Assembly: GCF_030733745.1 (NCBI RefSeq)
Contig: NZ_JASHIK010000002.1
Location: forward strand, 186,001-250,000
Source: Stappia sp. MMSF_3263
Lineage (GTDB): Bacteria; Pseudomonadota; Alphaproteobacteria; Rhizobiales; Stappiaceae
DNA length: 64,000 nt
Direction of reading: 5' to 3'
Shown here: one piece after another, positions 886 through 5,741 of the stretch
Layout: each line of letters starts with the position of its first letter
Position numbering within the stretch: position 1 is the stretch's first letter
The notes under the pieces: generated by a model
Told to the model about the DNA's origin: nothing
Database searches by the model: none
What the model saw: only the letters and a program-made list of their open reading frames with translations
Program-made: the position numbers and the translations under genes

Positions 886-3800
886 ATGCCGAAGTCGCGT
901 TCGACCTCAACGCCGCCCGCCTCCCCCGCTTCCGCCGCCGACCGGCGGGTGATCAGCGTGCGCGGCGCGCGCGAGCACAATCTGAAGAATGTCGATCTCG
1001 ACCTGCCGCGCGACGCACTGATCGTGATGACCGGTCTTTCGGGCTCGGGCAAGTCGTCGCTCGCCTTCGACACGATCTATGCGGAAGGCCAGCGACGCTA
1101 TGTCGAAAGCCTTTCGGCCTATGCGCGCCAGTTCCTGGAGATGATGCAGAAGCCCGACGTCGACCAGATCGACGGGCTGTCGCCGGCGATTTCCATCGAA
1201 CAGAAGACGACCTCGCGCAACCCGCGCTCCACCGTCGGCACGGTGACCGAGATCTACGATTACCTGCGCCTGCTGTTCGCGCGTATCGGCGTGCCCTATT
1301 CGCCGGCGACCGGCCTGCCGATCGAGAGCCAGACGGTGAGCCAGATGGTCGACCGGGTGCTGGCGCTGGAGGAAGGCACCCGGCTCTACCTGCTGGCGCC
1401 GGTGGTGCGCGGGCGCAAGGGCGAGTACCGCAAGGAACTGGCGGAGCTCATGAAAAAGGGCTTCCAGCGGGTCAAGATCGACGGCACCTTCCACGAGATC
1501 GCCGAGGCGCCGGCACTCGACAAGAAGCTGAAGCACGACATCGACGTGGTCGTCGACCGGATCGTGGTGCGCGAGGACATCGGCGGGCGTTTGGCGGATT
1601 CGCTGGAGACGGCGCTCGGCCTCGCCGACGGAATCGCGATTGCCGAATATGCCGACCGGCCGCTGCCCGAGCGCGACGCGGATGCGGTGCTGCAGAACCG
1701 CAACGAGACGCATGAGCGGATCACCTTCTCGCAGAAATTCGCCTGCCCGGTCTCCGGCTTCACCATTTCCGAGATCGAGCCGCGGCTGTTCTCCTTCAAC
1801 AACCCCTTCGGCGCCTGTCCGACCTGCGACGGGCTGGGCACGACGCTCGCCTTCGAGCCGGACATGGTGGTGCCGGACCAGACGCTGACCCTGCGCGAGG
1901 GCGCGGTGCTGCCCTGGGCCAAGACCGGCTCGACCTCGCCCTATTATGCCCAGACACTGGAGGCGATTTGCCGCCATTTCGACGCGTCGATGGCAACCCC
2001 CTGGGCCGAGCTGCCGGAGGCCGTGCGCGACACGATCCTCCATGGCTCGGGCCGGGAGAAGATCGAGTTCACCTATGACGACGGGGTCAGGAGCTACCGT
2101 ACGGCGAAAACCTTCGAGGGCGTCGTCGGCAATATCGAGCGGCGCTGGCGGGAGACGGACAGCGACTGGGTGCGCGAGGAGCTGTCGCGCTACCAGTCCG
2201 ACCGTCCCTGCCCTGCCTGCGGCGGTTACCGGCTGAAGCCCGAGGCGTTGTCGGTGAAGATCGCCAGGCGGCATGTCGGCGAGATCGCGCAGCTGTCCAT
2301 CCGCGATGCGGCCGAATGGTTCGAGGCGCTGCCGGGGGAACTCACCGACAAGCAGTCGGAGATCGCGGTCCGGATCCTCAAGGAAATCCGCGAGCGGCTG
2401 AAATTCCTCAACGATGTCGGGCTCGACTATCTGTCGCTGTCGCGCAATTCGGGCACGCTGTCGGGCGGCGAGAGCCAGCGCATCCGGCTCGCCTCGCAGA
2501 TCGGCTCGGGACTGACCGGCGTGCTCTACGTGCTCGACGAGCCTTCGATCGGCCTGCACCAGCGCGACAATGCCCGCCTGCTCGATACGCTGAAGCACCT
2601 GCGCGACCTCGGCAACACGGTGATCGTCGTGGAGCATGACGAGGACGCGGTGCTGACCGCCGACTATGTGGTCGATATCGGCCCGGGCGCCGGCATCCAT
2701 GGCGGCGAGATCGTCGCCCAGGGTACGCCGGCGGAAATCCTGGCAAACCCTGCCTCGCTGACCGGGCAGTACCTGTCCGGCGCGATGGCGATCCCGATGC
2801 CGGAGGGGCGGCGCAAGCCGAAGACGCGCCGGCAGATCCACGTGGCGGGCGCGCGCGGCAACAACCTGAAGAATGTGTCGGCCGACATCCCGCTCGGCAC
2901 CTTCACCTGCGTCACCGGCGTTTCCGGCGGCGGCAAGTCCACCTTCCTGATCGACACGCTCTACAAGGCGGCGGCGCGCCGGCTCAACGGCGCGCGCGAG
3001 ACGCCGGCACCGCACGACCATATCGACGGGCTGGAACTGCTCGACAAGGTGATCGACATCGACCAGTCGCCGATCGGGCGCACGCCGCGCTCCAATCCGG
3101 CCACCTATACGGGCGCCTTCACGCCGATCCGCGACTGGTTCGCCGGCCTGCCGGAGGCCAAGACGCGCGGCTATGCGCCGGGGCGCTTCTCCTTCAACGT
3201 CAAGGGCGGGCGCTGCGAGGCCTGCCAGGGCGACGGCGTCATCAAGATCGAGATGCACTTCCTGCCCGATGTCTATGTCACCTGCGACGTGTGCAAGGGC
3301 AAGCGCTACAATCGCGAGACGCTGGAAGTCGAATTCAAGGGCAAGTCGATCGCCGACGTGCTCGACATGACGGTGGAGGAAGGGGCGCGCTTCTTCTCCG
3401 CCGTGCCGGCGGTGCGCGACAAGCTGGAGACGCTGGCGCGGGTCGGCCTCGGCTACATCAAGGTCGGCCAGCAGGCGACGACGCTTTCGGGCGGCGAGGC
3501 GCAGCGCGTCAAGCTCGCCAAGGAACTGTCGAAGCGCGCGACCGGCCGCACGCTCTACATTCTCGACGAGCCGACGACGGGCCTGCATTTCCACGATGTC
3601 GCGAAGCTGCTGGAAGTGCTGCACGAACTGGTCGAACAGGGCAACACGGTGTTGGTTATCGAGCACAATCTCGAGGTCATCAAGACGGCCGACTGGATCA
3701 TCGACCTTGGTCCCGAGGGCGGCGATGGCGGCGGCACGATCGTGGCGCAGGGAACGCCGGAGGATGTCGTCGAGGTGGAGGCAAGCTATACCGGACGCTT

Positions 3801-4310: not shown

Positions 4311-4603
4311 GCGCTGCGAAGGCGGTTACGGCACCCATTCCTTTTCCACAAAATTCGGCCGCACTGCGCCCGCGCCATGCGTCGGCGACAATTCCCGGGC
4401 AACGGCTGACGCCGGGTTCCCCGCGACTTCGCATACGTTGCAGGAGAAACTATTGCTGCGATGCACAATATGCATGGCTGACGTGCAGAAATCGCGCTTT
4501 TTTTCGGGAGCTGAAAAAACTATCTCTTGGTCATCGGATCGGAGCGCTGCCGACGGACAAGCCGGGCAGCCAACTCCCTCAGGACATGCACACAGAGGCT
4601 ATC

Positions 4604-4753
4604 ATGTTCGACACACTTGCTCGCACCTACCGCAACTGGCGGACCTACCAGAGCACTGTTTCGGAGCTTTCGCGGCTTTCCACCCGTGAGCTCGACGATC
4701 TCGGCATTGCACGCGGCGACATTCGTTTCATCGCCAAGCGCGCCAGCCGTTAA
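4604..4753 (+). CDS. DUF1127 small protein (first copy)
   Basis: A 49-aa basic protein beginning MFDTLARTYRNWRTYQ. It carries the DUF1127 signature ELSRLSTRELDDLGIARGDI and ends in a basic RFIAKRASR tail. Proteins of this family are arginine-rich, and several have been linked to RNA handling, phosphate or stress responses in alphaproteobacteria. The best parallel here is the gene upstream of the CcsR small RNAs in Rhodobacter sphaeroides. An AGAGG lies 7 nt before the ATG. The stop is 15 bp before the first hairpin of a CcsR-like small RNA, so the two are probably co-transcribed. It shares about two thirds of its residues with the second copy at 5108. Confidence 0.9.
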   Translation: MFDTLARTYRNWRTYQSTVSELSRLSTRELDDLGIARGDIRFIAKRASR

Positions 4754-4765
4754 CAGTTCACGTTC

Positions 4766-4889
4766 AAAGAGATAGACCTCCTCCCCTATCTCCTTGACGT
4801 GTCCCGGCGGGGCATCCTCCTCCCAGCCCCGTTCGGATATTGCGACGCCCGCCGGTTCTCCTCCCTCCGGCGGGCGTTCGCTTTTTTTT
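4766..4889 (+). ncRNA. CcsR/cuckoo-type small RNA, copy 1
   Basis: Three successive hairpins expose a pyrimidine anti-Shine-Dalgarno motif in the loop. Hairpin 1 has stem GAGATAG/CTATCTC (4769-4775 with 4786-4792) and CCTCCTCCC at 4777-4785. Hairpin 2 has stem CGGGGC/GCCCCG (4808-4813 with 4826-4831) and CCTCCTCCC at 4816-4824. Hairpin 3 is the terminator, whose loop carries CTCCTCCC. The position directly after a DUF1127 gene and the loop motifs match the CcsR (cuckoo) RNA family described in Rhodobacter. The 5' end is unknown because it probably comes from processing of the DUF1127 transcript. Confidence 0.8.
4845..4889 (+). terminator. Rho-independent terminator of small RNA 1
   Basis: A perfect 11-bp stem, ACGCCCGCCGG at 4845-4855 with 4867-4877, and a TTCTCCTCCCT loop are followed by TTCGC and eight T residues (4882-4889). 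The loop repeats the anti-SD motif of the upstream hairpins. Confidence 0.9.
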
Positions 4890-5107
4890 AACAACCTCCG
4901 CATGCTCCGCGGCCTTCCTGCAAGGCTCTTCCGGATGACGCGGGCGTGACATGACCCCGGTGCATTTTGCAGAGCGGGCATGCCGAAACAGCGCGCCACA
5001 AACGGCGCGACACACCCCATATCAGGCTCACCGGAGCGATGACGCGATGCAGCATCCGCTGCCTCGGACGGCCGCTTCACCTCAACACCGTTCTCATGGA
5101 GAGACCA

Positions 5108-5257
5108 ATGCTCAACACCCTCGTTCGCAAGTACAATTCCTGGCAGAAGTACCGTCAGACCTATGACGAGCTGTCCCGCCTTTCCAACCGCGAGCTCAGC
5201 GACCTGGGCATCGGCCGGGGCGACATCGACTTCATCGCCCGCAGCCACACCCGCTGA
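5108..5257 (+). CDS. DUF1127 small protein (second copy)
   Basis: A 49-aa protein beginning MLNTLVRKYNSWQKYRQ, with the DUF1127 core ELSRLSNRELSDLGIGRGDI and a C-terminal FIARSHTR. Length and core match the copy at 4604, so this looks like a local duplication. A GGAGAG lies just upstream of the ATG; the open frame extends further upstream but without family similarity. After the stop comes an 8-bp hairpin (5265-5272 with 5279-5286) and then a strong terminator. Unlike the first copy, this gene is therefore separated from the small RNA that follows it. Confidence 0.9.
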   Translation: MLNTLVRKYNSWQKYRQTYDELSRLSNRELSDLGIGRGDIDFIARSHTR

Positions 5258-5297
5258 GGCCATGCGGCAGGTCGCCGCACCTGCCGACAACACGTTC

Positions 5298-5330
5298 AAA
5301 CGCCGCCCGAAAGGGCGGCGTTTTGCGTTT
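5298..5330 (+). terminator. Terminator after the second DUF1127 gene
   Basis: AAACGCCGCCC (5298-5308) pairs with 5313-5323 around a GAAA tetraloop, followed by TTTTGCGTTT. The same tail follows two other terminators in this window. Confidence 0.85.
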
Positions 5331-5367
5331 CAGGCCTTTGATTCGATTGATTTTTCCTGATGTCATG

Positions 5368-5396
5368 TTGCTCTGCACAAAAAGCGGGGCTGATAT
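5368..5396 (+). promoter_or_regulatory. Candidate promoter of small RNA 2
   Basis: TTGCTC (5368-5373) and TGATAT (5391-5396) are separated by exactly 17 bp. They lie after the DUF1127 terminator and upstream of the second small RNA, which suggests independent transcription starting near 5403. A heat-shock sigma factor promoter is possible by analogy with Rhodobacter but cannot be decided here. Confidence 0.45.
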
Positions 5397-5402
5397 GCAT
5401 CA

Positions 5403-5568
5403 TCGGGTCTGGAAATGTCGAGGAGACTCGCCCATATCAATTGCAACGGAGCAAGCGATCCTCCTCCCACGCTTCGCTCCCGTTCAGGCCGGTGATCCTC
5501 CTCCCTTCATCGGCCATCGAAAAACGACGCCCACCGGTTCTCCTCCCTCCGGTGGGCGTTCGTTTTTT
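5403..5568 (+). ncRNA. CcsR/cuckoo-type small RNA, copy 2
   Basis: It has the same three-hairpin plan as copy 1. Hairpin 1 pairs 5448-5457 with 5470-5480 (one bulged C) and presents CCTCCTCCC at 5460-5468. Hairpin 2 pairs CCGGTGA (5489-5495) with TCATCGG (5507-5513), including one G-U, and presents CCTCCTCCC at 5497-5505. Hairpin 3 is the terminator with CTCCTCCC in its loop. Stems differ from copy 1 while loops are conserved, as expected for a functional RNA. The 5' end is inferred from a candidate promoter; a processed form could begin near 5440. Confidence 0.8.
5527..5568 (+). terminator. Rho-independent terminator of small RNA 2
   Basis: ACGCCCACCGG (5527-5537) pairs with 5549-5559 around TTCTCCTCCCT and is followed by TCG and six T residues (5563-5568). 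It equals the copy 1 terminator except for one base pair, changed on both arms (G-C to A-T). Confidence 0.9.
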
Positions 5569-5741
5569 CAGCACTGTTCCCTTCCGCCCCTTCGCTTCCG
5601 GACAACCGGCTTCCACGCACAGACGATCGCCAATGCGCGAACGGCTTCGCGGCCGCTCGGATCATGTGATCGTTTGAGGGAAAAGACCGCCGTGGCAGAT
5701 GCAGTCGGAGGCTCATGCCGGCAGAGGCACCCGGCCCGCCT

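Follow-up and report, generated by a model that had tools for sequence, protein, structure and literature searches.

A tandem DUF1127/ar14 small-RNA locus in Stappia sp. MMSF_3263 and its putative VtlR/LsrB-type control

In the current work, a stretch of 64,000 nucleotides (nt) from Stappia sp. MMSF_3263 (NCBI RefSeq assembly GCF_030733745.1, contig NZ_JASHIK010000002.1, positions 186,001 to 250,000 of the forward strand), here named the window and used as the reference for all positions, was analyzed at a locus where two genes for small DUF1127 proteins (D1 and D2) are accompanied by two small RNAs (sRNAs, R1 and R2), each containing loops with an anti-Shine-Dalgarno (anti-SD) motif. Along the plus strand, the elements follow one another as box, promoter, D1, R1, weak box, promoter, D2, hairpin, box, promoter and R2, and are treated as three units (D1 with R1, D2, and R2):

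4462 to 4487, plus strand: VtlR/LsrB-type upstream box of unit 1, TGCACAATATGCATGGCTGACGTGCA (genus alignment; matrix rank 1)
4497 to 4525, plus strand: putative core promoter of unit 1, predicted from the genus alignment (-35 CTTTTT 4497-4502, 17 nt, -10 CTATCT 4520-4525)
4604 to 4753, plus strand: DUF1127 gene D1, 49 amino acids (aa) (PF06568, 53.8 bits)
4754 to 4889, plus strand: ar14 sRNA R1, of the 3' untranslated region type, behind D1 (RF02344 match 4759-4882, 71.8 bits)
about 4759-4801, 4804-4836 and 4842-4881, plus strand: R1 hairpins (fold)
4777-4785, 4816-4824 and 4858-4865, plus strand: R1 loop motifs (motif positions)
4961 to 5022, plus strand: putative D2 promoter (degenerate box 4961-4983, -10 CCATAT 5017-5022; genus alignment)
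5108 to 5257, plus strand: DUF1127 gene D2, 49 aa (PF06568, 56.1 bits)
5292 to 5328, plus strand: strong hairpin behind D2, probably the terminator of D2 (fold z -4.5)
5374 to 5399, plus strand: VtlR/LsrB-type upstream box of unit 3, TGCACAAAAAGCGGGGCTGATATGCA (matrix rank 3; genus alignment)
5409 to 5437, plus strand: putative core promoter of R2, predicted from the genus alignment (-35 CTGGAA 5409-5414, 17 nt, -10 CCATAT 5432-5437)
5444 to 5568, plus strand: ar14 sRNA R2, free-standing NfeR1 type (RF02344 match 5441-5564, 69.3 bits)
about 5445-5484, 5487-5515 and 5519-5568, plus strand: R2 hairpins (fold)
5460-5468, 5497-5505 and 5540-5547, plus strand: R2 loop motifs (motif positions)

A preliminary description of this locus, made from the letters alone, had proposed two DUF1127 mini-genes and two sRNAs of the CcsR/cuckoo type within 4604-5568, and this observation is confirmed. 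Both genes match the DUF1127 profile, and both RNAs exceed the gathering cut-off (58.8 bits) of the Rfam ar14 covariance model (RF02344), these being the only two such RNAs in a genome with four DUF1127 matches in total. On the basis of these scores, R1 and R2 belong to ar14, the family of NfeR1 and of the cuckoo/CcsR-type RNAs, which upholds the earlier assignment. There are two occurrences of the triple-loop pattern in the window and none in 100 shuffled versions, and the predicted folds of the two RNAs are markedly more stable than those of shuffled sequences (R1, -64.3 kcal/mol, z -7.9; R2, -61.2 kcal/mol, z -9.6). Each RNA forms three hairpins which expose, in order, CCUCCUCCC, CCUCCUCCC and CUCCUCCC in their loops. 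Hairpins with anti-SD loops had been expected and are present, their number being three per RNA rather than two, since the third hairpin, a terminator by form, also presents CUCCUCCC. The 44-nt 3' ends of R1 and R2 are 93% alike, with more divergence in the preceding stems. A simple terminator scan returned a single site (4869-4882, with 1.3 expected from shuffles); its output lacks the hairpin at 5292-5328, the loop of which is without an anti-SD motif. The earlier 3' ends of the RNAs, 4889 and 5568, fit runs of T and stand, whereas the start of the second RNA at 5403 was rejected as it lies upstream of the -35 element of the R2 promoter; a start at about 5444 is predicted instead because the genus-conserved -10 element CCATAT (5432-5437) lies upstream of this position.

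With respect to their surroundings, the first loop of R1 is located 24 nt past the D1 stop codon on the same strand, while R2 is free-standing, being placed behind the separate hairpin at 5292-5328 and its own putative promoter. Judged by this placement, R1 and R2 are non-equivalent RNAs. In print, DUF1127 genes beside such RNAs are referred to as the 'CIN1 locus', and in ccaF1-CcsR1-4 of Rhodobacter sphaeroides, as described, a DUF1127 gene is likewise followed at once by sRNAs of the same type; co-transcription is predicted for D1 and R1. If membership of this class is taken as a DUF1127 gene directly upstream with no promoter signal between, R1 falls inside it and R2 outside, with a hairpin and its own box intervening. 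The arrangement also differs in that two genes and two RNAs are distributed over three units, one RNA standing alone, as opposed to one gene with four RNAs.

Absence of loop conservation in relatives had been named beforehand as evidence against the preliminary description. In an alignment of 46 ar14 RNAs with known locus from the bacterial family (a weak match, L007, being excluded), the three motifs are found within hairpin loops in 40 RNAs, and compensatory changes occur at 17 of the 22 predicted pairs of a covariation consensus outside which hairpin 1 falls, probably through misalignment. The loops are therefore conserved on variable stems. This is the opposite of what a mere terminator needs, and R2 has promoter signals of its own without having a gene of its own, for which reasons it is regarded as very improbable that the small proteins alone matter and that the RNAs are stabilizing or terminating 3' ends without targets, even though R1 is situated directly behind D1 and ends in a hairpin of terminator form.

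The strongest promoter signal of the locus is the upstream box. The published consensus of VtlR/LsrB is given as GCAT-N3-TG-N3-T (PMC8844928), and LsrB is reported to bind the NfeR1 promoter at TGCA-N6-GCAT, from -72 to -60 (PMC10746234). The unit 1 box, which is present in all 14 genomes of the genus, has this same TGCA-N6-GCAT form and includes an exact GCAT-N3-TG-N3-T at 4472-4484, the sole plus-strand occurrence within 4380-5640. The distance from the start of the box to the start of the -10 element is 58 nt in unit 1 and likewise in unit 3, where the box would span -70 to -57 if R2 starts at 5444, while in the genus alignment the D2 promoter carries a weaker version at 56 nt, which is clear in four relatives (L159, L162, L165 and L167). 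As the short consensus is weak evidence by itself, 44 boxes that precede DUF1127 genes outside the family were used to build a matrix, with which both strands of the window were scanned (all matrices used here derive from boxes picked by TGCA-N6-GCA). Among 127,930 positions, the D1 box ranked first, the palindrome of the same box on the opposite strand second, and the R2 box third.

The same association is visible across the family, where a box score of at least 10 was obtained upstream of 45 of the 47 first DUF1127 genes, 35 of the 55 later ones and 15 of the 29 RNAs not close behind a gene (a class which also includes later members of RNA arrays), as compared to 16 of 1229 background bins. 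These counts come from 47 of 54 stretches, seven without a DUF1127 gene being left out, and from segments of 160 nt for genes and background and 120 nt for RNAs. Between a DUF1127 gene and an RNA right behind it, no such box was found in 52 cases, as is expected if these RNAs come from the transcript of the gene. From the box to the first loop of a free-standing RNA, the distance amounts to 86-89 nt where a box was found within the genus, versus 115-120 nt for two further genera (L196-L201), and is therefore not fixed throughout the family. At named ar14 loci of other families, 157 upstream segments contained 19 strict boxes (TGCA-N6-GCA) versus 1.06 expected from shuffles, and 13 of these sit 84-93 nt ahead of the first loop motif, the distance for R2 being 86 nt. 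In the 310 nt upstream of DUF1127 genes, a strict box was furthermore found in 53 of 72 regions, versus 34 of 263 for control open reading frames (ORFs), with 1.39 expected from shuffles, in a comparison where neighbouring tandem genes share one box and a part of the control regions is close to these loci.

The same kind of box was also observed 127 nt upstream of a gene for a 74-aa protein (MAIATTTTTAIAG...) on contig C10 (L262, reverse strand from 4187), and the protein stands behind the box in three other loci of the genus (L244, L245 and L257). It has no Pfam or NCBIfam match, and a profile comparison with DUF1127, using four sequences, gave a probability of 0.8%; this protein may additionally belong to the regulon.

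A candidate for the regulator itself is encoded elsewhere in the genome. In Brucella and Agrobacterium, VtlR has been described to activate both DUF1127 genes and AbcR RNAs, and the gene order trxB-vtlR-abcR is described for A. tumefaciens. In Stappia sp. MMSF_3263, trxB (C1:14861-15769, away from the locus) is adjoined by the gene of a 298-aa LysR protein which gives a full-length match of 432 bits to PDB entry 9hh1, as compared to 112.5 for the next structure. This entry is LsrB of A. tumefaciens, where VtlR/LsrB is described as redox-responsive (PMC11975290). By this match, an LsrB counterpart is present beside trxB. In all six non-Rhodobacterales genomes tested, trxB is adjoined by the gene of a counterpart with 56-78% identity. 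In the literature, LsrB is presented as unique to Rhizobiales (PMC11975290); in eight of eight Rhodobacterales genomes (L278-L285), a counterpart with 44-47% identity, clearly ahead of the next LysR protein, was retrieved, with no trxB within 1.5 kb on either side of it in any of the eight.

The lsrB counterpart of this genome is directly followed by a candidate RNA that contains one CCTCCTCCC loop (L271:3285-3408; fold z -3.8 on 3266-3425). Its matches to ar14, ar15 and SorX are weak and all below the cut-off, and a set of 14 unrelated genomes, used as controls, also gives matches at the same lax limit, in three cases to ar14 and in eight to ar15. When the 600 nt following the lsrB counterpart were inspected, an anti-SD motif was present in one of six relatives of the trxB type (L273; the stretch of the present genome was read separately), and a different C-rich string in three of eight Rhodobacterales. 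The candidate RNA is possibly the AbcR counterpart of the family.

The core promoters bear on a second mode of control, namely that the locus is mainly a member of an RpoH-type regulon for heat and oxidative stress, like its R. sphaeroides counterpart, where the CIN1 promoter is described as dependent on RpoHI/RpoHII, with the shared box being secondary. The -10 element CCATAT at units 2 and 3 and the -35 element CTGGAA at 17 nt in unit 3 come near the RpoH1 consensus of Sinorhizobium meliloti, CTTGAA-N16-CCTATAT (PMC8844928), but the -10 element of unit 1 reads CTATCT and the upstream box is the stronger signal. As the principal explanation, RpoH is consequently considered doubtful; the two modes could coexist, and RpoH-type control may apply, in particular to the second gene and the second RNA. 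The earlier proposal of a global stress regulator is likewise possible, and the interpretation offered in the preliminary description is, as a whole, partly supported.

The box was further assessed across orders by employing matrices from one group of DUF1127 promoters on another, in a set without four Stappiaceae-like loci (L047, L082, L138 and L144), with control ORFs starting no closer than 1.2 kb to a DUF1127 gene, and with groups assigned according to record titles, except that three loci named only as Pseudomonadota or Alphaproteobacteria (L040, L092 and L155) were assigned to Rhodobacterales by look. A matrix derived from the other orders recovered 20 of 20 Rhodobacterales-type DUF1127 promoters and none of 52 control ORFs, and, within 250 nt, all 20 Rhodobacterales-type regions contained the strict box itself, as did 21 of the 45 others. 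When applied to the window, the non-Rhodobacterales matrix placed D1 and R2 at its two best positions (R2 being rank 2), and the top position of the Rhodobacterales-type matrix was the D1 palindrome on the minus strand.

Taken together, these observations make it likely that the locus is a tandem DUF1127/ar14 riboregulator of the cuckoo, CIN1-type kind, consisting of three units, controlled by VtlR/LsrB and acting through the masking of ribosome-binding sites. Unit 1 would give rise to protein D1 and, by processing of the 3' untranslated region of its transcript, to R1; unit 2 would be transcribed into a D2 message ending at a plain hairpin; and unit 3 would generate R2 from its own promoter. 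Binding of VtlR/LsrB would switch on units 1 and 3 together, and in relatives also unit 2. The three anti-SD loops (CCUCCUCCC twice, then CUCCUCCC) would pair with G-rich ribosome-binding sites and thereby block the initiation of translation, the targets most likely being mRNAs for nutrient uptake and transport. Such a mode is described for NfeR1, whose three redundant loops silence ABC-transport and ntrB mRNAs at the ribosome-binding site (PMC10746234). Five frames of this genome are preceded by the complementary arrangement GGGAGGAGG-N3-10-ATG, two of which look by eye like transport functions, an ABC-type permease and a substrate-binding protein (L187 and L188; C33 and C47), the same kind of gene as the NfeR1 targets; of the other three, two are shorter than 31 aa and one, of 127 aa, may lie inside a longer gene.

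Proteins D1 and D2 may aid RNA processing, as CcaF1 does, or may act on sensor proteins, as reported for A. tumefaciens. The reported RNA binding of CcaF1, the DUF1127 protein of R. sphaeroides, and its effect on CcsR maturation (PMC10253847) could also be taken to mean that the loops are chiefly decoys for DUF1127 or another RNA-binding protein rather than acting on mRNAs, with which three identical loops on freely changing stems are compatible. Since NfeR1 altered in its three loop seeds is reported to lose mRNA silencing (PMC10746234), and protein contacts are reported as the mode of action of DUF1127 proteins in A. tumefaciens (PMC12501420), a decoy role is deemed improbable.

A number of points weigh against VtlR/LsrB control with masking of ribosome-binding sites. 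With regard to the box, that of R2 has GCGG in place of the GCAT half-site and two mismatches to GCAT-N3-TG-N3-T, while the D2 box of this genome scores weakly (rank 162 of 127,930); the short consensus occurs eight times in the window, both strands considered, and is thus unspecific alone; and a simple scan detected no sigma-70 promoter in 4380-5640. Among relatives, two of the 15 RNA box matches (L160 and L210) are at odd distances, and the strict box is held by only 18 of the 157 ar14 upstream segments of other families. The reverse of the cross-order test was weaker (15 of 45 versus none of 80 controls), and the Rhodobacterales-type matrix ranked R2 at 245 and D1 on the plus strand at 9. 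For S. meliloti, LsrB is reported as not involved in the control of AbcR (PMC7486931), in conflict with a report that it activates AbcR1 (PMC8844928). Concerning targets, a clear genome-wide enrichment of loop-complementary sites was looked for and dismissed, as the five GGGAGGAGG-N3-10-ATG matches compare to three in a reversed control, and a 16S gene was not found in the assembly, so that the anti-SD sequence of this genome is not readable.

As for its distribution, ar14 is represented by two or three matches in each of the 14 genomes of the genus and by a match in 85 of 87 genomes of the family (E <= 0.001), of which 61 of 87 exceed the cut-off. Across the class, 12 of 385 sampled genomes were positive (E <= 1e-4, stricter filters), and the RNA family is therefore patchy at that level. 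The order of genes (D) and RNAs (R) was surveyed in 54 stretches from 53 family genomes, all preselected for an ar14 match, and was D-R-D in 22, D-R-D-R in 15, D-R-D-R-D-R in five and of other kinds in five. The remaining seven fetched stretches, all from one genus (g6), lack a DUF1127 gene; of these (L202-L207 and L229), one has the three canonical loop motifs, four have two, and two have no cluster. Four D-R-D stretches which were examined closely (L209, L211, L218 and L226) contain an extra RNA behind D2 whose middle hairpin is without the anti-SD motif. In L190, L191, L216, L217 and L227, several ar14-type RNAs are arrayed behind a single DUF1127 gene, as in the Rhodobacter CcsR array.

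That the locus might be rare or genome-specific is ruled out by this spread (85 of 87 genomes; 37 of 54 stretches with D-R-D or D-R-D-R). A scan of named sequences for the triple-loop pattern yielded at least 120 stretches, and among the matches listed 46 of 120 have a DUF1127 gene at most 1 kb upstream on the same strand, chance matches and cut-off stretches being counted in; five of the 120 (L042, L074, L088, L115 and L127) lie, judging by their titles, outside Alphaproteobacteria and were taken as chance matches. Also among the matches listed are five Mesorhizobium stretches (L058, L087, L101, L137 and L153) with two DUF1127 genes and two RNAs each. In view of the orders within the family and these examples, tandem copies are ordinary for such loci, and the earlier suggestion that a duplicated locus may be new in kind is not supported. 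Upstream of the locus lies uvrA, which also adjoins such a locus in Roseibium L138 (88% identity over 458 aa), Labrenzia L082 (93% over 215 aa) and AO1-B L144 (84% over 950 aa). In a rough tree of DUF1127 proteins, based on 52 columns, the labels for first and last genes change 3 and 5 times, as compared to about 31 times in shuffles; such clustering suggests an old gene duplication within the family.

The closest described relative of R2 is NfeR1 (Smr14C2) of S. meliloti, which belongs to the same family, has three hairpins with CCUCCUCCC-type loops and is free-standing too; its LsrB-type box about 70 nt upstream may be matched by the R2 box, of which one half-site reads GCGG and whose distance depends on the predicted start. 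It differs in that here DUF1127 genes are neighbours and a second copy, R1, lies behind one of them. Unlike NfeR1, no NtrC motif (TGC-N11-GCA) is present in 5300-5443 upstream of R2; the NtrC site is suggested to be limited to plant symbionts (PMC10746234). The VtlR regulon of Brucella and Agrobacterium resembles the present system in the kind of box, the gene classes and the trxB-vtlR neighbourhood, and differs in that its named RNA is AbcR rather than ar14, its DUF1127 genes not being described, in the published portions consulted, as joined to an ar14 RNA.

The ar14 family is already in print, together with its anti-SD loops, silencing, occurrence in several copies within one genome and link to DUF1127, as is the control of DUF1127 genes by VtlR and of NfeR1 by LsrB. 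No report was found of the box on DUF1127-cuckoo operons or in Rhodobacterales, nor, among the papers listed, one joining CcsR with LsrB or VtlR, an absence that is to be read as soft. The comparison suggests that the novel point is the regulatory link, i.e., a shared VtlR/LsrB-type switch, as the literature, in the accounts available, treats the control of the RNAs and that of the small proteins apart and in different bacteria.

Two units of the locus carry a similar box at constant spacing, and such a box recurs at 20 of 20 DUF1127 promoters in a second order, which leads to a single testable hypothesis on why DUF1127 genes and anti-SD RNAs travel together. To the systems known, the present work adds a bacterial family with an ar14 match in 85 of 87 genomes. 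In a wider reading, for which we see the chances as about even, the VtlR/LsrB-type box is the ancestral control of DUF1127-cuckoo loci in Rhizobiales and Rhodobacterales, including the CcsR-type operons credited to RpoH. If this is true, Rhodobacterales would be served by a diverged LsrB counterpart, and the separate stories of CcsR, NfeR1, AbcR and DUF1127 would become one regulon under a LysR regulator responsive to redox state, as described in A. tumefaciens.

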